A model generated the notes under the pieces. It was not told the DNA's origin. It ran no database searches and worked only from the letters and a program-made list of their open reading frames with translations. From NCBI GenBank assembly GCA_020247055.1, contig JADCJL010000112.1, positions 1 to 55,986 on the forward strand: 55,986 nt of DNA, read 5' to 3'. This document shows, piece by piece, positions 16,016 to 54,801 of this stretch. Positions within the stretch are counted from its first letter, which is position 1, and each line of letters opens with the position of its first letter. The DNA is from Acidobacteriaceae bacterium (lineage in GTDB: Bacteria; Acidobacteriota; Terriglobia; Bryobacterales; Bryobacteraceae). The position numbers were made by a program, and so were the translations under genes.

Positions 16016-16046
16016 CGGGAACTTTCCGCCGCCTCTTTGCGTTCGC

Positions 16047-16090: not shown

Positions 16091-16849
16091 TTGATTCTTG
16101 GAAAATTCTGGGGCGCCATCAGCGCCCAGCTCAATAAGATCGCCAACCTGTTCTGGGAGGCCGATCCCATCGCGCAGATGCAACTCGAACACGATCGCGC
16201 CCTCGAGCAGATGAAGGAGGGGCGGCGTGGCCTCGAAACCTACCGCGGTCTCGTCGAACGCGTCACCCGCCAGGTGGCCACCGCCCGTGCCCACGTGCAA
16301 AAGCTGGAGGCCGAAACCAAGGCCTATCTCAAGATCGGTAACCGCGAAACCGCTGCGAAGTTCGCCCTCGAATTACAAAAGGCCAAGCAGGAACTCGCCG
16401 GCCATCTCGAACAACTCGAGATGCACGAAACGGCCTACGAGAACAACCTCAAGAAGATCCAACACGCCAGCCATCAATTGGCCGAAGTGAAAAACCGGAT
16501 CCAGAAGTACGACGCCGAACTCAAAATGAGCGCCGCCGAAGCCGAAATCGCCGCCCTCTCGGAGTCCTTCAACATGAGCGTCACCACGGATTTCGGCCAG
16601 ATCGAACGCGTCATCCAGGACCGCATCGACCGCAACCGCGGCAAGGCCCGCGTCGCGGCCGACCTGTCGCGCGAAGGGATCGCCGAGATCGAAGCCCAGG
16701 AGCAACTGCAAAAGTCCATGGCCGAAGACGCCCTGTTGCAGTTCGAAAGTGAACTCGGCCTGCGCTCTCCCGAAACGACTCGCCTCGCCGAAACACAAAA
16801 AGATTTGGGCCCGGCCGTGGCCGACCCGAAACTAACCGAACACAACTAA
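16091..16849 (+). CDS. pspA: PspA/IM30 family membrane-remodelling protein
   Basis: A 252-residue, almost entirely helical protein. It opens with a short amphipathic segment (LGKFWGAISAQLNKIANLFW), then ADPIAQMQLEHDRALEQMKE and long charged coiled coils to the C-terminus, the PspA/Vipp1 pattern. PspA proteins are ESCRT-III-superfamily members that coat and repair stressed inner membranes. I chose the TTG at 16091 because GGGAGAGG stands five bases before it and it begins the amphipathic helix; the frame is open 18 codons further upstream without such a site. It is the first gene of a tight set with an ABC importer, a coiled-coil membrane protein and a AAA ATPase. The PspF/PspBC partners known from enterobacteria are absent. 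Confidence 0.85.
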   Translation: MILGKFWGAISAQLNKIANLFWEADPIAQMQLEHDRALEQMKEGRRGLETYRGLVERVTRQVATARAHVQKLEAETKAYLKIGNRETAAKFALELQKAKQELAGHLEQLEMHETAYENNLKKIQHASHQLAEVKNRIQKYDAELKMSAAEAEIAALSESFNMSVTTDFGQIERVIQDRIDRNRGKARVAADLSREGIAEIEAQEQLQKSMAEDALLQFESELGLRSPETTRLAETQKDLGPAVADPKLTEHN

Positions 16850-16871
16850 TCCACCGCTTCCAGGTACCGCC

Positions 16872-18575
16872 ATGGCTCAACCCAAACCCGCCTTCTACGT
16901 CGCTGTCTTCCTTGTTGTCGCCGGACTGGTCGGCTACGGCCTCTGGCGCTTCAGCGCGCTGCCGCAGAAAGCCGGCGGCGTCATCTCGAAAGAGGATCTC
17001 GGTGGCGGTGCCGAAGCCCCCGATACGGCCGGTATCACCACCGCCAAGGACTACAACTACGTCCCGGCGCAGAAGTTGCCCGCCGTGCAGGGCATCTCCA
17101 GCTATAAGCCCATGGCGGACCGCACCGTCCGCTTCGCTCTCAATGTCTGGGCCGGCTGGGCGCCCATCATTCTCGCCAACCAGGGCCTGAAGCCGGGCAA
17201 GGTCTGGAAGACCCCCTCCGGCAAGGACTTCAAAGTCGAACTCGTGCTCATCGACGACCCCGTGGCCATGCGCGACGCCTACGCCGCCGGCAACGTCCAC
17301 ATCGGCTGGGGCACCCTCGACATGGTCCCCCTCCTGCTCGACAGTTTGAAGAAGGATTCGCGCGTCATGCCGCGCATCTATCAGCAGGTCGATTTCTCGA
17401 ACGGCGGCGATGGCATCGTCGTCCGCGACAGCATCAAATCCGTGGCCGACCTCCGCGGCAAAACCATCGTGCTCGCGCAGAACTCGCCCTCGCACTTCTT
17501 CGCACTCAACGCCCTCATCAACGGCGGCGTGCAGCCCGCCGAGGTCAATTTCAAATTCACACAGGACGCTTTTCAAGCTGCCGCGGCCTTCAACGCCGAT
17601 AAGTCGCTCGCCGGCGCTGTTTCCTGGGCCCCGGATATCTACAACCTGTCGAAGGTGAAGGGCAACCGTCTGCTCGTCACCACCGCCACGGCCAACAAAC
17701 TCATCGCCGATGTCTGGTTCGCCCGCGCCGACTTTGCCAAGGATCATCCGGACATCATCGAAGGCCTCGTGCGCGGCATCTTCGACCACATGGAGCTGCT
17801 CAAAGAGCAGACCAATAAACAGGCTGTCGCCAAGCTGATGGCCACCGCCTACTCCATCCCCGAAAGCGACGCGCTCGGCATGCTCGGCGACGCCCACAGC
17901 ACCAACCATGCCGAAAACCGCGAGTTCTTCCTGAACCAGAACAACCCGACCAACTTCGAGCGCACCTGGAACACCGCCTACTACCTCTATAAGCGCATCG
18001 GCGCCGTCTCCGACAAAGTCGACTTCGATCAGGTGATGGACTTCAGCCTCATCGAAAAGCTGAGCAAGGAGCCGAAGTACGCCCAGCAGACCAACGAGTA
18101 CAACGTGCAGTTCGTCCCCACCACGGCCACTTCGATTCAGGCCGAATCGGACGAGATTCTCACCAAAACCGTCGTCATCCACTTCTACCCGAACTCCTTT
18201 GACCTGGCCAAGGTCGTCGTCAAGAACGTCAACGGCAAAACGCTCGAAGAGCTCTACGACCCGAACGTGAACTTCGTCGTCGAAGAGGTCGGCAAACTGG
18301 CCGGCCAGTACGGCGCGGCGCGTATCGTCATCGAAGGCCACACCGATTCGTCGATGAAGGGCCAGGTGCCCGATTCCTCGGTCAAAGAGCTGGCCATGAA
18401 TCGCGCCAACGCCGTGAAAACCTCGCTCGTCAAGAAGTTCCCCACGCTGCCCGCCAACCAGTTCTCCGCCAACGGCCTTGGCTGGGACCGCCCGGCCGAC
18501 CCGGCCGATCCCCTGAATCACGCCAAGAACCGGCGCGTCGAAATCAAGGTCTATCCGCTCGAGGCCACGAAGTAG
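16872..18575 (+). CDS. ABC substrate-binding protein fused to an OmpA domain
   Basis: A 567-residue two-domain envelope protein. An uncleaved-looking membrane helix (about residues 8-27, no cleavage box) anchors it in the inner membrane. Residues about 80-390 are a periplasmic binding domain of the taurine/nitrate/NMT1 type (VRFALNVWAGWAPIILA; VADLRGKTIVLAQNSPSHFF). Residues about 430-565 are an OmpA-like peptidoglycan-binding domain with IVIEGHTDSS and AKNRRVEIKVYP, the Asp and Arg that hold diaminopimelate in this family. The protein could thus span from membrane to cell wall and present ligand to the permease encoded two bases downstream. The ligand is unknown; taurine-type proteins bind sulfonates, nitrate or pyrimidines. 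It is the third-longest gene product of the region and unlike the usual soluble or lipoprotein binding proteins. Confidence 0.85.
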   Translation: MAQPKPAFYVAVFLVVAGLVGYGLWRFSALPQKAGGVISKEDLGGGAEAPDTAGITTAKDYNYVPAQKLPAVQGISSYKPMADRTVRFALNVWAGWAPIILANQGLKPGKVWKTPSGKDFKVELVLIDDPVAMRDAYAAGNVHIGWGTLDMVPLLLDSLKKDSRVMPRIYQQVDFSNGGDGIVVRDSIKSVADLRGKTIVLAQNSPSHFFALNALINGGVQPAEVNFKFTQDAFQAAAAFNADKSLAGAVSWAPDIYNLSKVKGNRLLVTTATANKLIADVWFARADFAKDHPDIIEGLVRGIFDHMELLKEQTNKQAVAKLMATAYSIPESDALGMLGDAHSTNHAENREFFLNQNNPTNFERTWNTAYYLYKRIGAVSDKVDFDQVMDFSLIEKLSKEPKYAQQTNEYNVQFVPTTATSIQAESDEILTKTVVIHFYPNSFDLAKVVVKNVNGKTLEELYDPNVNFVVEEVGKLAGQYGAARIVIEGHTDSSMKGQVPDSSVKELAMNRANAVKTSLVKKFPTLPANQFSANGLGWDRPADPADPLNHAKNRRVEIKVYPLEATK

Positions 18576-18577
18576 CC

Positions 18578-19381
18578 ATGTCGCTCTGGGATCTGCGCGT
18601 CCCGCCGCCTGGCTACGCCGGCAAACTGCTCGGCGGGTTGACGCTGGCCGCCGTCGTCGGTTTCTGGTGGCTGGCCACGCAGGGCGCAACGCCGGAGGCG
18701 CGCTGGATCTCGCCCGTCATTCTCCCGTCGCCCGCCGAAGTCGCCGGCAGTTTCCCCGCGCTTTGGAACGATCGGGGGCTGCTCGCCTCCATCGTCGCCA
18801 CACTGCGCCGTGTGCTCGTCGGCTTTGGCCTTGCCGCGCTGCTCGGCGTGCCGCTCGGCATCGTGGCCGGCGCCTGGCGCGTCTTCGATTCGGCCTCCGC
18901 GCCGCTCGCGCTCTTCGGCCGCAATATTCCGGTGGCCGCGCTGATCCCGCTCACCATCCTCTGGTTCGGCATCGAAGAGACGCAGAAGGTGATGTTCCTG
19001 TTCCTCGCCTGCGTCCCGTTCGTCTTCTCCGACGCCGTCCGCGCCATCATCGCCGTGCCGGACCGCTACGTTGAAACGGCGCAGACGCTGGGCGCCACCT
19101 CCTGGCAGATTGTCACCAAAGTGCTCGTCGCCCTCGCCCTGCCTGATATCTACAAGAGCCTCCGCAGCCTGTTCGGCATGGCCTTCGGCTACATCATGCT
19201 CGCCGAACTCATCAACGCCGAACACGGCCTCGGCTATCTCCTCTCTACCAGCCAGCGGCGCGGCATGTCCGACCACATCATTCTGATCCTCGTCATCATC
19301 GGGCTGATCGCCTTCGGCATCGACCGCTTTCTTCTGTTCCTGCAGCGCGGCCTGTTCCCCCACCGCACGGAGGCCGATTGA
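18578..19381 (+). CDS. ABC transporter permease (SsuC/TauC type)
   Basis: A 267-residue inner-membrane permease of the BPD_transp_1 family with about six helices. The ATPase-contact EAA loop is seen at RYVETAQTLGATSWQIVTKV followed by ALPDIYKSLRSL, close to the sulfonate and taurine permeases. It begins two bases after the binding-protein stop, and its own stop overlaps the TTG start of the ATPase (TTGA). Together the three genes form a complete importer apart from an outer-membrane route. Its place between pspA and a AAA ATPase is unusual for a nutrient importer and suggests a role in envelope homeostasis, which is inference. Confidence 0.88.
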   Translation: MSLWDLRVPPPGYAGKLLGGLTLAAVVGFWWLATQGATPEARWISPVILPSPAEVAGSFPALWNDRGLLASIVATLRRVLVGFGLAALLGVPLGIVAGAWRVFDSASAPLALFGRNIPVAALIPLTILWFGIEETQKVMFLFLACVPFVFSDAVRAIIAVPDRYVETAQTLGATSWQIVTKVLVALALPDIYKSLRSLFGMAFGYIMLAELINAEHGLGYLLSTSQRRGMSDHIILILVIIGLIAFGIDRFLLFLQRGLFPHRTEAD

Positions 19382-20184
19382 AAATCGTCCACTTCGATAA
19401 GGTTTCGAAAACCTTTCCCGACGCTACCGAACACGGCCACACTGTCATCAAAGATGTCTCCTTCACGGTCGAAGACCGCCCCGGCCACGGCGAGTTCATC
19501 GGCATCCTCGGCCCGAGCGGCTGCGGCAAATCGACCATCCTCCGCCTCATCGCCGGCCTTCGGCCCCACCACCCCGCCACCGCCGGTACCGTTGAGGTCC
19601 TCGGCGGGCCCGTGCAGGGACCGGGCGCCGACCGCGGCATGGTCTTCCAGGACTACACGTCGTTTGATAACCGCACCGTGCTCGACAACATCGCCTTTGG
19701 CCTTGAATGCGCCGGGGTTGGCCGCCAGGAGCGATACGATCAGGCGCGCCTCTGGATCGAAAAGGTCGGCCTGAGCGTGAAACGCGACGGTGACAAGTTT
19801 CCCCATCAGCTCTCGGGCGGCATGCGCCAGCGCGTCGCCATCGCGCGGACCCTCATCCTCCGCCCGAAAATCATCCTGATGGATGAACCCTTCGGCGCCC
19901 TCGACCCCGCCACGCGGCTCAATATGCAGGACCTCCTCGTCACCCTCTGGCGGGAACTCGAAGCCACCGTCTTCTTCGTCACCCACGATGTCGATGAAGC
20001 GGTCTATCTCGGCGACCGGGTCCTGATCTTCTCGCCCGCGCCCGGCACCATCCTCCATAACCTCCCCGTGCCGCCGCCCGACCGCCCGGCCCGCGAAATG
20101 CAGCGCGACCCCGCCTTCGCCGCCGTCTCCCGCGAAATCGCCGACATTATTGAGAAACTGGAAGGAAAGGTTTCTGACTCCTAG
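19378..20184 (+). CDS. ABC transporter ATP-binding protein (SsuB/TauB type)
   Basis: A 268-residue ATPase of the importer. All motifs are intact: Walker A GPSGCGKST, Q-loop VFQDYTSFDNRTV, signature SGGMRQRVAIAR, Walker B IILMDEPFGALDP and the switch His in VFFVTHDVDEAVYL. This is the layout of nitrate/sulfonate/taurine ATPases. The start is the TTG in the TTGA overlap with the permease; AAAATCGTCCACTTC follows directly, giving the normal N-terminus KIVHFDKVSKTF. No ATG is available nearby. The C-terminal region (about 240-268) is helical and may contact the next protein, which starts three bases downstream. Confidence 0.9.
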   Translation: MKIVHFDKVSKTFPDATEHGHTVIKDVSFTVEDRPGHGEFIGILGPSGCGKSTILRLIAGLRPHHPATAGTVEVLGGPVQGPGADRGMVFQDYTSFDNRTVLDNIAFGLECAGVGRQERYDQARLWIEKVGLSVKRDGDKFPHQLSGGMRQRVAIARTLILRPKIILMDEPFGALDPATRLNMQDLLVTLWRELEATVFFVTHDVDEAVYLGDRVLIFSPAPGTILHNLPVPPPDRPAREMQRDPAFAAVSREIADIIEKLEGKVSDS

Positions 20185-20187
20185 CCC

Positions 20188-21051
20188 ATGGCCCATCTCT
20201 CCGCCGGTCTCGGTGCTTACCTCCAGCGAGCGTTTCTCTACCGCTGGAACCTGCTTGTGTTTCTCGGCGCCACGGCGGCCGCGGTGATGAGTCCGATTCC
20301 CGACGTGCTGCTGCCCCTCATCGCCGCCGGCGAACTCACCTACCTCGCCGGCCTCGTCGCCAACCCCCGCTTCCGCCAGGCCATCGACGCCGAACACCAC
20401 CAGGCCGCCACCGAGCAAACCACGGCCACCGCGCAGCGTTCCCTCGAGCAGATCGTCGGCACCTTCCCCTTTGAGTTCCGCCAGCGCTTTGAACAGCTCC
20501 GCAACCGGTGCCTCGAAATGCGCGACATCGCCCACGGCGTCCGCGGCCGTCAGCAGGCGCCCGCCGGCGAAGACTCCCACACCCAGGCGCTCGACCGCAT
20601 GCTCTGGGTCTTCCTCCGCTTGCAGACCACGCAGCTCTATCTCCAGCGGTTCCTCGAAAAAGCCAGCGAAGTCGAAATCCGCAACCGCATCCGCGAGGCC
20701 GAAGACCGCCTCGCCGCGCTGAACTCCCCCGACGAACGCATTAAGCGCTCCCTCGAAGATTCGCTCCTCGTCCAGCAGCAGCGCCTTGAAAATCACGAGA
20801 AAGCCCGGCAAAACCTCGACTACGTCCGCGTCGAACTCGACCGCATCGAAGCCAAGATTCAAGCCATCACCGAAGCCGCCGTCAACCGGCAGGACCCCGA
20901 CTTCCTCACGAGCCAAATCGACTCGGTCAGCCAGAGCATGGAGTCCACCGAAAAGGCGATCGACGAGCTGCAGCAGCTCACCGGCATTGTCGAAGAGATG
21001 CACACCCCGCCCCTGATTCTCGAAGCCGATCTCAGCCAGGTGCGCCGTTGA
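20188..21051 (+). CDS. Membrane-anchored coiled-coil protein, unknown
   Basis: A 287-residue protein of no family I recognise. Two hydrophobic stretches close to the N-terminus (about residues 20-35 and 38-57) would form a membrane hairpin. The rest, about 65-285, is charged and helical with long coiled-coil segments (for example RDIAHGVRGRQQ; LQTTQLYLQRFLEK; DRIEAKIQAITEAA). Heptad-like spacing of Leu/Ile runs to the end. It ends in TTGA, the TTG being the start of the AAA ATPase gene, so the two are probably made in a fixed ratio. A plausible role is a membrane receptor or adaptor for PspA or for the ATPase. That is inference from position and shape only. Confidence 0.6.
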   Translation: MAHLSAGLGAYLQRAFLYRWNLLVFLGATAAAVMSPIPDVLLPLIAAGELTYLAGLVANPRFRQAIDAEHHQAATEQTTATAQRSLEQIVGTFPFEFRQRFEQLRNRCLEMRDIAHGVRGRQQAPAGEDSHTQALDRMLWVFLRLQTTQLYLQRFLEKASEVEIRNRIREAEDRLAALNSPDERIKRSLEDSLLVQQQRLENHEKARQNLDYVRVELDRIEAKIQAITEAAVNRQDPDFLTSQIDSVSQSMESTEKAIDELQQLTGIVEEMHTPPLILEADLSQVRR

Positions 21052-22712
21052 GCCCCGCTCCGCCGCCCCCCGCCTGGGCCAATCAACTCACCGAACTCTT
21101 CTACTCCGGCTCCACCGTCCTGTTTGCCCTGCACGGCAACACGCAGGACCTCGTTCCCAACGGCGACGGCTTCTCGCCCCTGCCCGACTTCCTCGCCCAG
21201 CAGATCTTCGGCCGCTGGGATCTCGTCCTCTACTACGACCTCGCCCGCGGTCTGCGCGCCTTTGCCGGCGCCGACGCCGCCCGCCTCAAAGAGATGGTCG
21301 TGCTCGCCAACCGCAAAGTCGGCGACCTCGCCACCGCCCGCCGCGACCCCGCCATGGCCTTCGCCCTGCTCGATCGCTTCGTGCAGAACAACATCATGGC
21401 CGCCGATGCCGACCGTATCTCCGCCGCCGTCGTCATCGATCACGCCAGCTTCCTGCTGCCCGCCGGCGAGCCGGGCCGCCTCTCCGTGCCCGCCGCCACG
21501 CAAGTGGTCACGCTCCTCAACTGGGCCGCCAGTCCGCACCTCAAACGGCTCAACATGGCCTTCCTCGTCATCGACGAAAAGCTCTCGGCCCTCAACGAAC
21601 GGCTCACCACCAGCCCCCATACCGCCGCCATCGAAATTCCCCTGCCCGATGAAGCGACCCGCGCCCGCTTTGCCCCGGAGCTCGCCGCGCAAACCGCCGG
21701 CCTCACCCTGCTCGACCTCCGCGCCCTCAAAGAGTCCAAAGAGCCGCTCGACCCGAAGCGCCTCCGGGAACTCAAAAAGATGCTCATCGAGCGGCAGTCG
21801 CAAGGCCTGCTCGAGTTCATCGAACCGCGCTGGAACTTCAGCAACTGGATCGGCCATCCGCCCATCAAACAACGCCTGCAGGACGACGCCACGCTCCTGC
21901 GCCAAGGCAACCTCAACGCCCTGCCCATGGGCTATCTCGTCTGCGGCCCCGTGGGCACCGGCAAGAGTTTCCTCGCCCAGTGCCTCGCCGGTGAGATCGG
22001 CATCCCCTGCGTCACGCTCCGCAACTTCCGGTCGAAGTACGTCGGCGAGACCGAAGGAAACCTCGAGCGCCTGCTGAATCTGCTCCGCGCCCTCGGCCCG
22101 GTCATCGTCGTCGTCGACGAAGCCGACGCCGCCCTCGGCGACCGCGACCAGGAAGGCGACTCCGGCACCGGCAGCCGCGTTTTTTCAATGATCGCCACGC
22201 AGATGGGCGACACCCGCTACCGCGGCAAGATCCTCTGGATGCTGCTCACCGCCCGCCCCGACCTGCTGCCGATCGACCTCAAACGCCAGGGCCGCGCCGA
22301 AGTCCACATTCCCCTCTTCTACCCGGCCGACGCCGCCCAGGTCCGCGCCATGTTCCTCGCCATGGCGCGCAAGGCGCATACGCCGCTGGCCGAGGAGGAT
22401 ATTCCGCCCATCCCGCACCTCGGCCAGCTCTCGGGCGCCGACGTTGAAGGCATCGTCGGCCGCGCCGCCCGCCAGGCCTTGCTGGCCGGTGCGGCCGGCA
22501 TCACCCGCGAGGCCCTCGCCGCTGCCGTGGCCGAGTTCCTGCCCTCGACGCAGAGCCTCGAAAAGGAGATGCAGGAGATTGCCGCCATCCTCGAGTGCAC
22601 CGACCGTCAGTTCCTCCCGCCCGAAATCCTCGAAAAGATGAACGCCTTCGGCGGCCGGGAAAAATTGCAGGAGCGCTACACCCAGCTCCGCCGCATGATC
22701 GAATTAGCCTAA
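21048..22712 (+). CDS. AAA ATPase with Vps4/FtsH-like core
   Basis: A 554-residue ATPase. Residues about 1-270 form an N-terminal domain without recognised motifs. The AAA core then shows Walker A CGPVGTGKS (about residue 301) and a pore-loop segment SKYVGETEGNLERLL that closely follows the pattern of classic AAA unfoldases such as Vps4, p97 and FtsH. Walker B VIVVVDEADAA and the second region of homology with arginine finger (ARPDLLPIDLKRQGR) follow. The lid and a C-terminal helical region complete the chain. It likely remodels a protein partner by threading it. The start is a TTG in TTGA overlap with the preceding gene. Encoded in one operon with PspA, it is a candidate disassembly motor for PspA coats. 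Confidence 0.82.
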   Translation: MSPAPPPPAWANQLTELFYSGSTVLFALHGNTQDLVPNGDGFSPLPDFLAQQIFGRWDLVLYYDLARGLRAFAGADAARLKEMVVLANRKVGDLATARRDPAMAFALLDRFVQNNIMAADADRISAAVVIDHASFLLPAGEPGRLSVPAATQVVTLLNWAASPHLKRLNMAFLVIDEKLSALNERLTTSPHTAAIEIPLPDEATRARFAPELAAQTAGLTLLDLRALKESKEPLDPKRLRELKKMLIERQSQGLLEFIEPRWNFSNWIGHPPIKQRLQDDATLLRQGNLNALPMGYLVCGPVGTGKSFLAQCLAGEIGIPCVTLRNFRSKYVGETEGNLERLLNLLRALGPVIVVVDEADAALGDRDQEGDSGTGSRVFSMIATQMGDTRYRGKILWMLLTARPDLLPIDLKRQGRAEVHIPLFYPADAAQVRAMFLAMARKAHTPLAEEDIPPIPHLGQLSGADVEGIVGRAARQALLAGAAGITREALAAAVAEFLPSTQSLEKEMQEIAAILECTDRQFLPPEILEKMNAFGGREKLQERYTQLRRMIELA

Positions 22713-22722
22713 GGAGAACTCC

Positions 22723-23013
22723 ATGCCCAAAACCAGTTGGTTTGACGATTCCACCGACCTGCCCGTCATCGATGAACAGGTCGCCAAGCTCACCTCCTTC
22801 GCCGCCGCCATCGCCGACGGCGTGATTGAGAAACACGAACTCGCCGCGCAGCAGACCGTCGTGGTCGAAACCATGCGCACCGTCGAAGCGCTCCTGTCCG
22901 ACGCCCAGCACGCCGCCGTCACCCGCCTCCTGGTCGAACTGAGCGCCTATAACGTCATGCGCACCGTGCACGAACTCGAAGCCGGCCGGCTGCGCCGGTC
23001 GCTCGGCCTCTGA
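22723..23013 (+). CDS. Small helical protein of the PspA cassette, unknown
   Basis: A 96-residue acidic helical protein with no signal peptide or membrane helix. It begins MPKTSWFDDSTDLPVIDEQV, continues as an Ala/Glu-rich helix and ends VMRTVHELEAGRLRRSLGL. A strong ribosome binding site (AAGGAGA) precedes the ATG by six bases, and it starts ten bases after the AAA ATPase gene. I recognise no family. Size and position suggest an adaptor or regulatory subunit of the ATPase. Confidence 0.65.
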   Translation: MPKTSWFDDSTDLPVIDEQVAKLTSFAAAIADGVIEKHELAAQQTVVVETMRTVEALLSDAQHAAVTRLLVELSAYNVMRTVHELEAGRLRRSLGL

Positions 23014-45411: not shown

Positions 45412-45503
45412 GAAAGCTCATTGTAGCAGCGGCGCCCCAAGTTGACAGAACCATAATGGATTCTTCATCGGCCTGCAATCCGGGCGGCGTAATCTCGGGC
45501 TCA

Positions 45504-47204
45504 ATGGACGCCTTTCAAATCAAAGCGCTGCGGGAGTTCTACGCCCGGACGCGCGGCGGCGACGAGCGCGCGCTGACGCGCCGGATGATGGAGGAGTTGG
45601 GGGTGAAGCTGGAATGGCACGAACCGGACCTTGAGCGGATTCCGAAGATCGGGCCGGCCGTGATTGTCTGCAACCATCCCTACGGGATGCTCGAAGGTCT
45701 TCTGCTGACCCAACTGCTCACGCCGCTGCGGCCGGACGTGCGCATCGTCACCAACCAGTTGCTCGCCGAGATCACCGAACTGAACCGGATCTGCATCTGG
45801 GTGGACCCGATTGCGGACCGCAGCCGGGCGGCGCGCTTCAACTCGCGCGGCCTGCGGGAGTGCCTGGCGTGGCTGCAGGGCGGGGGATTGCTGGTGCTGT
45901 TTCCGGCCGGGGCCGTGTCGACGATTGACGTTAAGCGGCGGGGCATCGTCGACCCGGCGTGGATTCCTTCGGCGGCGTGGCTGGCGCGCAAGACCGGCGC
46001 CGTGACCGTTCCCTTCTACTTCTCCGGCAGTAACTCGTTGCACTTTCACTTACTGGGCCTTCTGCACGCTAAACTGCGGACCGCGGCATTGCCGGCCGAG
46101 TTCCTCAATAAGCGCGGCCATCCCGTCGAGGTGCGCATCGGCCGTCCCGTACCGGCGGCCACGCTCGACGGTTTCGGCGACGACCGGACGGCGGCTGAGT
46201 ATCTGCGTTCCCGCACCTACCTGCTCGCTAAGCGCGGCCGGCCGGCGGCCCACGCGGCGCTTGGCGAGGGGGAACCGTTGGCCGCGCCGGCCTCCCCCGA
46301 TCTCCTCGCGGGAGAGGTGGCGGCGCTGCCGGCCGGTCAACTGCTTGATGAAAGCAGGGAACTGTCGGTCTGGTACGCCTCCGCCGGGCAGATCCCCGGC
46401 ATCCTCTCCGAGATCGGCCGCCTGCGCGAGGCTACCTTCCGCGCCGTGGGCGAGGGATGCGGACGGGCCATTGACCTCGATCGCTTCGACCGGCACTATC
46501 AGCAGTTGTTTGTCTGGAACCGGGAGCGGCGCGAGATCGTGGGCGGCTACCGGTTGGTGCATACCGCGGATGTGCCGCTGGACGATCTGTACTCCCGCAC
46601 GCTCTTCCGGTTCGACCGCCGTTTCTTGCAGCGGATCGGCCCGGCGGTTGAGTTGGGCCGGAGTTTCGTGCGGCCGGAGTATCAGCGGCAGTACGCGCCG
46701 CTGCTGCTGTTGTGGAAAGGCATCGGGCAGTATGTCGCGCGCCGCCCGGAGGCGCCCGTGCTGTTCGGCGCGGTCAGCGTCAGCAATGACTATTCGGAGA
46801 TTTCGCGGCGCCTGATCGTGCGGTATTTCGAAACCCGGCAGCGCGATGCGGAGCTGGCCCGCCTCGTCCGCTCGCGGCGGCCGTTGCGAAAGCTGTTGGT
46901 GGAGTGGGAAGTCGATTCGCTCGTCCAGTTGAGCCGGAATCCCGAAGACTTAGGCGCCCCGATCATGGACCTGGAACCGGATGGCAAAGGGCTGCCGGTG
47001 CTGCTGCGGCAGTACTGCCGTCTGGGGGCGAAGATGCTGGCCTTCAGCGTCGATCCCCGGTTTGCCAATGCTCTCGATGGCATGATCCTCGTCGATCTCC
47101 GCGACAGCGAACGGGCGCTGCTCGACCGCTACATGGGGAAGGAGACGGCAGAACGATTTCTCGCCGAAGCCGGCGGCTGCCGGACCTTCGCACAGGTGTC
47201 CTGA
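45504..47204 (+). CDS. OlsF-like bifunctional acyltransferase (ornithine lipid type)
   Basis: A 566-residue two-domain enzyme. Residues about 1-240 are a lysophospholipid-type acyltransferase with AVIVCNHPYGMLEGLLL (an NHx(n)-type site) and LLVLFPAGAVSTID, as in OlsA. Residues about 290-566 are a GNAT-like N-acyltransferase of the OlsB/hemolysin type (IGRLREATFRAVGEG; VELGRSFVRPEYQRQYAPLL). In OlsF the order OlsA-OlsB in one chain makes ornithine lipid from ornithine in two acylations. The same order here supports that assignment, but relatives may use other amino acids. The frame is open 16 codons upstream of 45504; the second ATG begins the conserved part, and TAATCT seven bases before it could be its -10 box. 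Confidence 0.8.
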   Translation: MDAFQIKALREFYARTRGGDERALTRRMMEELGVKLEWHEPDLERIPKIGPAVIVCNHPYGMLEGLLLTQLLTPLRPDVRIVTNQLLAEITELNRICIWVDPIADRSRAARFNSRGLRECLAWLQGGGLLVLFPAGAVSTIDVKRRGIVDPAWIPSAAWLARKTGAVTVPFYFSGSNSLHFHLLGLLHAKLRTAALPAEFLNKRGHPVEVRIGRPVPAATLDGFGDDRTAAEYLRSRTYLLAKRGRPAAHAALGEGEPLAAPASPDLLAGEVAALPAGQLLDESRELSVWYASAGQIPGILSEIGRLREATFRAVGEGCGRAIDLDRFDRHYQQLFVWNRERREIVGGYRLVHTADVPLDDLYSRTLFRFDRRFLQRIGPAVELGRSFVRPEYQRQYAPLLLLWKGIGQYVARRPEAPVLFGAVSVSNDYSEISRRLIVRYFETRQRDAELARLVRSRRPLRKLLVEWEVDSLVQLSRNPEDLGAPIMDLEPDGKGLPVLLRQYCRLGAKMLAFSVDPRFANALDGMILVDLRDSERALLDRYMGKETAERFLAEAGGCRTFAQVS

Positions 47205-52452: not shown

Positions 52453-54801
52453 ATGATACCATGCCCTCTTTTTAAAATGATTGGATTCAATAGGTTAACC
52501 ACGGGACAAACGCTCTCCTGCCTGCTCGTCCTGATTTTGCTCGCGCCCGGACCGGTTGTGGGCAAGACGCGCAAGGGCGACCGGTTCTATGCGGCGGCAA
52601 AAAAGGCCGAAAACGCCGGCGATTGGGAAAAGGCCTTTGAAGAGTATGAAAATGCGCTGCGCGAGGACCCGGCTGAGAGTAACTATCAGATCGGGCACCG
52701 GCGGACGCGCTTTGAGGCTGGGGCGCGTCGCACGCAGCGGGCGCAGAAGCTTCGCTCGGAGGGCAAGCTTGAAGAAGCGTTGACGGAGTTTGAGCGCGCC
52801 TTTCTGACCGATCCGTCGAGCGCGATCGCCATTCAGGAGATTAAGCGGACCAAGGCGCTGCTCGACGCCGAGCGGCTACGGGGCGCCAAACTCGCTCCCG
52901 AGGAGCGCGGCCTGACTCCGGTCGAATCGGCGCGCCGCGAGAGTGAAGAAAAGATCGGTCGGATTCAGGCGGCCCCCGAGTTGAAACCCCTGTCGCGGCA
53001 GGTCACCTCGCTCAAGATGAACAATCAGAACATCCGGGTTCTGTACGAGACCCTCGGCAAGCTCACCGGCATCAACGTGGTCTTTGACCCGGAGATGCAG
53101 CAGCCGTCGAAGAACTTTTCGGTCGATCTGACGAACACAACGCTTGAAGATGCGCTCGAGCACCTGTCGACCCTGACCAAGATGTTCTGGAAGCCGCTCA
53201 ACCCCAACACCATCTTTCTCACCAACGACAATGTCACCAAGCGGCGGGATTACGAAGAGAACGTGGTGAAGGTCTTCTACCTGCAGAACATTACCAGCGT
53301 GCAGGAGTTGAACGAGATCTCCGTGGCGATCCGGTCGGTGACCGAGATCCGCCGGCTGTTTACTTATAACGCCCAGAACGCGATTCTGGCGCGGGGCACG
53401 GTGGATCAGGTGGCGCTCGTCGAAAAGCTGCTGCAGGACCTCGACAAGCCCAAGCCCGAGGTGCTGGTGGATGTGATCGTGATCGAGACGAGCCGCGGGC
53501 GCACGCGCGATCTGGCGTCGGCCCTGTCGTCGACGAGCGGGTCGAGCACCAGCAACGGGATCAGCGTCGGCGTGACCCCGGCGCTTGGCTCGGCCGGCAC
53601 GGGCAACACGGTGCGGCTGGACAAGCTCACCTCGCTCACGGCGGGCGATTTTGCCATTAACCTGCCGAGCGCGATTTTACGGGCGGTCATGTCGGACAGC
53701 AACGCGAAGGTGCGGCAGACCCCGCAGGTGCGGGCGGCCGATGGTATGAAGGCTTCGCTCAAGATTGGCGAGAAGGTTCCGACCGCCTCCGGGTCGTTTC
53801 AGCCTGGCATCGGGTTGGGTGGCGGAGGCGTGAGCCCGCTCGTCAACACGCAATTCCAGTATCTCGATGTGGGTGTTAACGTCGACATTCTTCCCAAGAT
53901 CCACGGGGCCGATGAGGTCTCTCTGCACGTTGAGATCGACATCTCGACCGTCCGTGAGCGCATCGACATCGGCGGCATCCAGCAGCCGGTGATCGGTCAG
54001 CGCAAGGTGATTCACGACCTGCGGTTGCGGGAAGGCGAAATGAACCTGATTGGCGGTCTGGTGCAGCAGAACGAGACCCGGACCAACAGCGGCATTCCGT
54101 TGCTGATGCAGATCCCCTATCTGGGCCGACTGTTTTCGAACGAATCGATCAACCGGACCGAAAGCGAATTGATGATCGCCCTGGTGCCCCACATCGTGCG
54201 CAGCCAGGAGATCACCCCGGTGAACCTGCGCGGGATTGCGGCGGGCGCCGACCAGACCATCCGGCTGATCCGCTCGATTCCGGAGCCGGCGGGCGGCACC
54301 GCCCCAGCGGCGCCCGCCGTAGGCGGCCTGGACGCGCCGAAGCCGGCGGCCGACGCGCCCAAAGCGAGTGTGGTGAAGCCGGCCGCGCCCGTGAAGCTGG
54401 TGTGGCAACCGGAAGGGGTCGTCACCAAAGCGGGTTCGCCCGTGGTGGTGACGCTGCAGGTGGCCGAGGCGCAGGACCTGTTCTCGGCGCCGATGAAGGT
54501 CAAGTACGACCCGAAGAAGTTGAAGCTGGCGACCGCTACCGCCGGAGCGTTCCTGTCGGGTGACGGCCAGCGGGTGAACTTCACTTTTCAGGACGCGCCC
54601 GCGGCAGGCGAGGTGTCGGTGATTCTCAACCGCCTGCCCGGGGTGCCGGGGCTGAACGGCTCTGGGGCGCTGCTCTCGTTAACTTTCCAGGCCTTAGCGG
54701 CCGGGCAGACCACGGTAACCGTTCTCGACAGCAGTCTCAAGAACTCGAAGCTCCAGCCGGTACCGGCGCAGACCCCGGGGGTGCCGGTCGAAATCCGATG
54801 A
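52453..54801 (+). CDS. Secretin with TPR N-terminus and cohesin-like C-terminus
   Basis: A 782-residue outer-membrane secretin of type II/IV secretion systems. After a signal peptide (LSCLLVLILLAPGPVVG) come two TPR-like helices (FYAAAKKAENAGDWEKAFEE), an N0/STN-like domain (LYETLGKLTGINVVFDPEM), N1 repeats and the secretin core (VDVIVIETSRGRTRDLASAL; GEMNLIGGLVQQNETRTNSG; IPLLMQIPYLGRLFSNES; ESELMIALVPHIV). After an Ala/Pro-rich linker (about 620-650) an Ig/cohesin-like domain follows (VVVTLQVAEAQDLFSAPMKV to SLTFQALAAGQTTVTVLD). This tail could bind surface proteins. A start at 52477, eight codons in, is equally possible. The stop overlaps the pseudopilin gene (ATGA). Confidence 0.88.
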   Translation: MIPCPLFKMIGFNRLTTGQTLSCLLVLILLAPGPVVGKTRKGDRFYAAAKKAENAGDWEKAFEEYENALREDPAESNYQIGHRRTRFEAGARRTQRAQKLRSEGKLEEALTEFERAFLTDPSSAIAIQEIKRTKALLDAERLRGAKLAPEERGLTPVESARRESEEKIGRIQAAPELKPLSRQVTSLKMNNQNIRVLYETLGKLTGINVVFDPEMQQPSKNFSVDLTNTTLEDALEHLSTLTKMFWKPLNPNTIFLTNDNVTKRRDYEENVVKVFYLQNITSVQELNEISVAIRSVTEIRRLFTYNAQNAILARGTVDQVALVEKLLQDLDKPKPEVLVDVIVIETSRGRTRDLASALSSTSGSSTSNGISVGVTPALGSAGTGNTVRLDKLTSLTAGDFAINLPSAILRAVMSDSNAKVRQTPQVRAADGMKASLKIGEKVPTASGSFQPGIGLGGGGVSPLVNTQFQYLDVGVNVDILPKIHGADEVSLHVEIDISTVRERIDIGGIQQPVIGQRKVIHDLRLREGEMNLIGGLVQQNETRTNSGIPLLMQIPYLGRLFSNESINRTESELMIALVPHIVRSQEITPVNLRGIAAGADQTIRLIRSIPEPAGGTAPAAPAVGGLDAPKPAADAPKASVVKPAAPVKLVWQPEGVVTKAGSPVVVTLQVAEAQDLFSAPMKVKYDPKKLKLATATAGAFLSGDGQRVNFTFQDAPAAGEVSVILNRLPGVPGLNGSGALLSLTFQALAAGQTTVTVLDSSLKNSKLQPVPAQTPGVPVEIR

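Follow-up and report, generated by a model that had tools for sequence, protein, structure and literature searches.

A conserved gene set of PspA, a double-AAA+ ATPase and a wall-anchored ABC transporter as a candidate ESCRT-like membrane-remodelling system in several bacterial phyla

Related systems and layout of the locus

The closest described arrangement is the class of operons outlined by Ravi et al. 2024 (PMC11237479, section 18), in which PspA is encoded together with a transmembrane (TM) “Snf7 homologue”, a double AAA protein, an ABC ATPase, a permease and a PBP-OmpA protein. That section describes the N-terminal AAA copy as inactive, gives OGG56892.1 as an example and proposes ATP-dependent membrane remodelling linked to transport for these operons. 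In ESCRT-III/Vps4 (CdvB/CdvC), an ESCRT-III-superfamily polymer protein is likewise found beside a classic AAA motor with a pore-loop aromatic; according to the available text of a 2024 preprint, ESCRT systems with vps4 are confined to archaea and eukaryotes (PMC11188069). For PspA/Vipp1, the available text of Liu et al. 2021 (PMC8281802) leaves open which ATPase, if any, acts as Vps4.

The window analysed here, a stretch of 55,986 nucleotides, is an entire contig of a 6.56 Mb Acidobacteriaceae genome that is 97.7% complete. It holds seven tightly packed genes on one strand (Table 1), with intergenic gaps, in gene order, of 22, 2, -4, 3, -4 and 10 bases; all coordinates and gaps given in the original prediction for this DNA were reproduced. 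The pspA reading frame could also open at 16037, and the start at 16091 was preferred because many named homologues begin with MI[LF]GKFW or similar, which fits the latter position. In the window's own genome, a single PspA copy was found, located inside the cassette, along with a single copy of the AAA N-domain.

Table 1. Coordinates of the gene set, its main domains and neighbouring features in the window
Feature	Position	Strand	Description
Seven-gene set	16091-23013	+	tightly packed
pspA	16091-16849	+	252 aa, TTG start; PspA/IM30, ESCRT-III superfamily
PspA tail motif	16799-16813	+	K-D-L-G-P, residues 237-241
SBP-OmpA fusion gene	16872-18575	+	Pfam OmpA and NMT1
OmpA domain of SBP-OmpA	18315-18530	+	C-terminal
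ABC permease gene	18578-19381	+	Pfam BPD_transp_1; TauC-like by NCBIfam, below cut-off
ABC ATPase gene	19378-20184	+	Pfam ABC_tran; TauB-like by NCBIfam, below cut-off
Coiled-coil (CC) gene	20188-21051	+	no Pfam match above cut-off
Hydrophobic helix pair of CC	20242-20361	+	predicted; N21 and E49
Double-AAA+ ATPase gene	21048-22712	+	Pfam AAA
N-terminal AAA	21069-21806	+	degenerate (predicted)
C-terminal AAA	21936-22313	+	predicted active; classic Cdc48/Vps4 type with pore-loop aromatic
p96 gene	22723-23013	+	96 aa; zero Pfam matches
ilvA	23024		first position past the gap
GNAT-acyltransferase fusion	45456-47204	+	Acetyltransf_5 fused to Acyltransf_2
Secretin	52453-54801	+	C-terminal cohesin domain

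Compared by published description, the cassette has the same kinds of genes as the class of Ravi et al. (PMC11237479): a PspA gene, a two-AAA protein with an inactive N-terminal copy, and an ABC ATPase, a permease and a PBP-OmpA protein. The difference is p96, which section 18 leaves unmentioned and which may appear in the supplements. The original prediction knew of no description of this exact set, a claim that has to be given up, since the main outline, all but p96, is already published in that section. What is new here is p96 as a conserved neighbour of the AAA gene, the modularity of the set, the conservation of the AAA, ABC and peptidoglycan (PG)-binding motifs, and the lead offered by the PspA tail. 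The gene set is not described in the available text of PMC9239133, PMC11746142, PMC8281802, PMC13051332 or PMC11188069, literature word searches covering titles and abstract openings returned no other paper about it, and no experiment on it was found in the available text of the literature examined.

The PspA_IM30 protein is common to the cassette and to classical PspFABC, whereas the other partners differ. The original prediction had the known Psp partners absent, and for PspC this is borne out by 0 matches in the window's own genome, in a search whose control was positive in 7/14 genomes. In addition, sigma-54 and sigma-70 scans found no site close 5' of pspA, and their counts were not above those of shuffled sequences.

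Upstream of the cassette lies malQ, and ilvA begins 10 bases past p96. We considered ilvA as a further member and rejected it, because in relatives it is either distant from p96 (~4.5 kb in L026 and L027) or not found beside it (fetched flanks of L028 and L029). Elsewhere in the window, at a distance of ~30 kb, lies a gene for a secretin, a protein class well known for inducing the Psp response. The GNAT-acyltransferase fusion recalls bifunctional ornithine-lipid synthesis enzymes and is possibly involved in membrane lipid synthesis.

Conservation and modularity of the gene set

Named loci were taken from an AAA-alignment scan as the best 80 of 220 AAA relatives, a sample that is biased towards window-like loci. 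Thirty-four of these loci extend at least 6.5 kb to either side of the AAA gene, and 19 of them have the complete set of seven; counted per gene over the 34, pspA is present in 32, CC in 29, SBPompA and the ATPase in 26 each, and the permease and p96 in 24 each. The 19 complete loci belong to Acidobacteriota, Myxococcota, Planctomycetota and one unclassified lineage, and within the same best 80 of 220, at least six of the genes occur together in Acidobacteriota, Gemmatimonadota, Myxococcota, Planctomycetota, Hydrogenedentota and Elusimicrobia.

Gene order differs among these best 80 of 220 relatives. Specifically, the usual order in Acidobacteriota, Myxococcota and Gemmatimonadota is pspA-SBPompA-permease-ATPase-CC-AAA-(p96), and that in Planctomycetota is pspA-AAA-p96-SBPompA-permease-ATPase-CC. 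The two orders therefore point to two mobile blocks, AAA-p96 and SBPompA-permease-ATPase-CC, with pspA common to both; exceptions are a few Acidobacteriota in which SBPompA lies beside pspA, apart from the permease. Reduced versions also occur in this sample: some Planctomycetota carry pspA-AAA-p96 triads with no ABC genes within ~8 kb (e.g., L065 and L071), Balneolota loci hold pspA, CC and AAA without SBP-OmpA, and a Riflebacteria locus is without CC. Three Balneolota loci (L115, L116 and L122) show pspA, a short second PspA-like gene, CC, a gap of ~2.2 kb and then AAA.

Relatives of the window carry near-identical gene sets, and the window's gene order is kept in 19/20 fetched loci as far as the contigs reach, the remaining one (L043) being pspA-CC-AAA only. 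Within the same genus (19 genomes, the window's own included), seven genomes have the window's version (CC identity 77-100%), nine have a version at 24-28% identity and three have none, and no genome holds both CC versions.

We also surveyed the phylum from the CC gene, using 80 regions of the 92 CC matches in 396 genomes (twelve were left out, including the window's own). By its own terms, the original prediction would fail if the genes lay apart in most relatives; on the same strand and within 8.5 kb of CC, pspA was found in 69/80 loci, but AAA in only 40/80. These 80 loci comprise, among others, 28 bare pspA-CC dyads, 15 pspA-CC-AAA loci without ABC genes, 7 loci with CC alone and several permuted orders. 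Across the 396 genomes, the AAA N-domain was found in 70 (7 weak matches of 77, with E >1e-5, were left out), CC in 86 and PspA in 128. AAA and CC co-occur in 58 genomes (Fisher 5e-36, with related genomes treated as independent). PspA accompanies CC in 84/86 genomes and AAA in 64/70, so that 6 AAA genomes are without a PspA match, and 12/70 AAA genomes are without CC. When 13 genomes without CC near AAA were examined, only 5 had CC elsewhere; a 14th (L110) has CC beside AAA. The system can therefore do without AAA in some cases, as bare pspA-CC dyads make up 28/80 loci and 28/86 CC genomes have no AAA match at the threshold applied.

Altogether, its recurrence across phyla and in differing orders makes the clustering more than chance. 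The gene set is a real and conserved system, as the original prediction had anticipated, and a modular one.

A separate arrangement was seen in L293 (genome G258) and L295 (G072), where a diverged AAA gene adjoins ABC genes and several genes of SBP-OmpA-like type but no CC gene; this is possibly a sister system.

Predicted properties of the encoded proteins

In the length-filtered set of AAA sequences, the Walker A lysine, the Walker B DE and the KRxGR motif are kept in 112/112, and the pore-loop Y/W in 111/112. The protein thus has the core of Vps4, that is, a classic AAA domain that has an aromatic pore-loop residue and, after sensor 1, conserved arginines. The profile of its N-terminal part hits AAA domains of Cdc48/p97 (4e-7 at best; 7e-7 for the longest stretch, Cdc48 304-434), no Walker A was seen there, and the region is predicted to be a degenerate first ring. 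Unlike Vps4, the cassette AAA carries this degenerate domain N-terminally, gave no MIT match at E 0.1 and has Cdc48 as its closest NCBIfam model (1e-17), with CdvC further down. The product of the adjoining gene, p96, is an all-helical protein and the conserved seventh member of the set; a PDB sequence search with it gave nothing useful (best 0.11), and kinship with TerB found no sequence support, the TerB alignment, for which the longest ORFs were taken, being poor.

The SBP-OmpA protein has a hydrophobic anchor at ~residues 7-25, followed by a TauA/SsuA-like solute-binding domain and the OmpA domain. The solute-binding domain is closest to TauA (E 2e-12), and TauC and TauB are among the best NCBIfam models for the permease and the ATPase, although all three resemblances fall far below the NCBIfam equivalog cut-offs for TauABC/SsuABC (216.8 versus 357 for TauB; 73.2 versus 333.9 for the best SBP model). 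The anchor and the OmpA fusion distinguish the cassette protein from its TauABC/SsuABC counterparts. In the length-filtered sets, the SBP core residues S176, G178, D180, W252 and P254 are kept in 72-73/73 sequences. The ABC ATPase has Walker A/B, signature and H-loop, and its residues K51, S146, G147, D169, E170 and H203 are kept in 56-58/58. Within the OmpA domain, D492 is found in 72/73 and R511 in 71/73 of the length-filtered sequences, the remainder being gaps. We equate these two residues with the DAP-site Asp and Arg that contact peptidoglycan in OmpA_C-like domains, and the conserved Asp/Arg pair is that of a PG-binding domain of this type.

The CC protein was described in the original prediction as a two-helix coiled-coil protein. 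A coiled-coil gene is indeed present, but its product has a predicted hydrophobic helix pair (residues 19-58) followed by several long helices (AlphaFold mean pLDDT 89.6). Two polar residues, N21 and E49, are each kept in 136/138 sequences of the length-filtered set; lying at or inside the hydrophobic helix pair, they are unusual for a simple anchor. Whereas section 18 of PMC11237479 calls the TM protein of its operons a Snf7 homologue, Pfam and hhalign gave no sequence support for Snf7 kinship of the CC protein, and a PDB sequence search with it returned nothing useful (best 0.0077). Compared with BdpA, a bacterial BAR-like protein as given in the available text of PMC8687657, it reached a Z at a level common among helical bundles.

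The cassette PspA scores 37.1 bits against PF04012 (PspA_IM30; cut-off 33.9), its family profile matches solved Vipp1/PspA structures, and its N-terminal stretch is amphipathic when read in 18-residue windows (muH up to 0.63). At the other end of the protein, 41 aligned cassette PspAs have an invariant G240 and K237 in at least 90%, in a tail that is otherwise variable. We defined the tail pattern as [KR]x[LIM]G[PGAS] or a terminal KT[LIM], chosen after the tails had been seen; an earlier, looser pattern was dropped because it also matched the end of a PspA helix. Among genomes with an available PspA sequence, excluding within-genome duplicates and PspA ORFs that are shorter than 200 aa or run off a contig, the motif is present in 47/54 AAA+CC+, 1/5 AAA+CC-, 4/26 AAA-CC+ and 0/26 AAA-CC- genomes, so that seven AAA+CC+ genomes are without it. 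Five AAA+CC+ genomes encode two PspAs each (G102, G306, G317, G318 and G334); in these, the linked copy has the motif, as a terminal KTM in G102, and the unlinked copy is without it; in the two-PspA AAA+CC- genomes G258, G428 and G432, neither copy has it. Where pspA lies away from AAA, the motif is kept in five genomes (G111, G123, G156, G183 and G225) and absent in four (G126, G281, G401 and G406). On a PspA tree built with the tail left out, which included 28 named loci chosen by hand and omitted the ORF artefact G248, only 6-7 independent pairs remained, ~2 of them concordant and ~0 discordant (median p 0.5). The K-x-[LIM]-G tail thus appears to accompany the presence of AAA, in a manner that is not significant once descent is allowed for, and we regard it as a lead rather than a finding.

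Some AAA+ genomes have PspA tails that end otherwise, without K-x-[LIM]-G (L210 and L237; L275, L276 and L279), e.g., with a shared SAFDEK ending. Given these divergent endings, PspA may have other handles.

A proposed machine and its alternatives

We propose, with a probability of roughly 0.55, that the seven genes specify a bacterial machine for ESCRT-like membrane remodelling, in which PspA is recycled by its own Cdc48-like motor and which is tied to the cell wall and to a TauABC-like transporter. In this scheme, whose physical interactions we infer from the gene set and its conserved motifs, PspA would polymerise on the inner leaflet of the inner membrane, and the double-AAA+ protein would serve as a dedicated motor that extracts PspA subunits from the polymer through its active C-terminal ring, probably by gripping the C-terminal tail of PspA. 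The small p96 would act as an adaptor of this motor, and the CC protein, held in the membrane by its helical hairpin, would recruit or nucleate PspA. The TauABC-type transporter and the wall-bound SBP-OmpA protein would fix the machine at the envelope and couple it to the import or sensing of a putative small periplasmic ligand.

The AAA protein might instead serve transporter quality control, extracting or unfolding damaged membrane proteins, chiefly the ABC transporter, with PspA merely sealing the membrane in the meantime. Cdc48 and FtsH extract or unfold damaged membrane proteins, and the closeness of the AAA protein to the Cdc48 model agrees with such a role, as does the diverged AAA of L293, whose neighbours include ABC and SBP-OmpA-like genes but neither pspA nor CC. 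Yet the Planctomycetota triads (best 80 of 220) and the 15/80 CC loci with pspA-CC-AAA have no ABC genes nearby, and PspA is the most constant neighbour; we therefore consider quality control rather unlikely. It is very improbable that we are dealing with an ordinary transport operon that includes a stress gene, its members clustered for co-expression and forming no single machine. Dense packing alone is no proof of a complex, and the modules do also occur alone, but the same genes cluster in several arrangements, and at least six of them do so in six phyla (best 80 of 220).

The original prediction regarded the genes as one machine that senses or repairs the inner membrane, with the ABC part either an importer or a mechanical sensor, and the conserved set is in keeping with the first part of this claim. 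As a sensor, SBP-OmpA would span the inner membrane and the wall and signal loss of contact via the ABC unit to the CC protein and PspA, with no solute import. The hydrophobic anchor, the conserved PG-binding residues of OmpA and the near-invariant polar N21 and E49 in the CC hairpin would suit such a device, whereas the SBP core and the key residues of the ABC ATPase are conserved as in a working transporter, which makes the sensor improbable in our judgement. Because the SBP core, the ABC motifs and the PG-binding residues are all conserved, a working, wall-anchored transporter fits better than a purely mechanical tether, while sequence does not distinguish between sensing, repair and import.

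Returning to the ESCRT-like machine, a wider version of this reading, which we put forward tentatively as a possibility, is that several phyla own a Vps4-independent ESCRT-like cycle. In such a cycle, a Cdc48-type double-ring motor would recognise PspA by its K-x-[LIM]-G tail, either directly or via p96, and recycle the polymers; a BAR-like membrane-hairpin protein would be the nucleator, and the wall-anchored transporter would provide positional or metabolic input.

The loci supply candidates for the motor (AAA), for its handle (the PspA tail) and for its adaptor (p96), and therefore the question of which ATPase acts on PspA/Vipp1 becomes testable by in vitro disassembly. The gene set also allows experiments on how bacterial relatives of the ESCRT proteins, which repair membranes in eukaryotes, are recycled. 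If the proposed reading is true, archaea and eukaryotes would not be alone in using a dedicated AAA motor for the ATP-driven recycling of ESCRT-III-type polymers.
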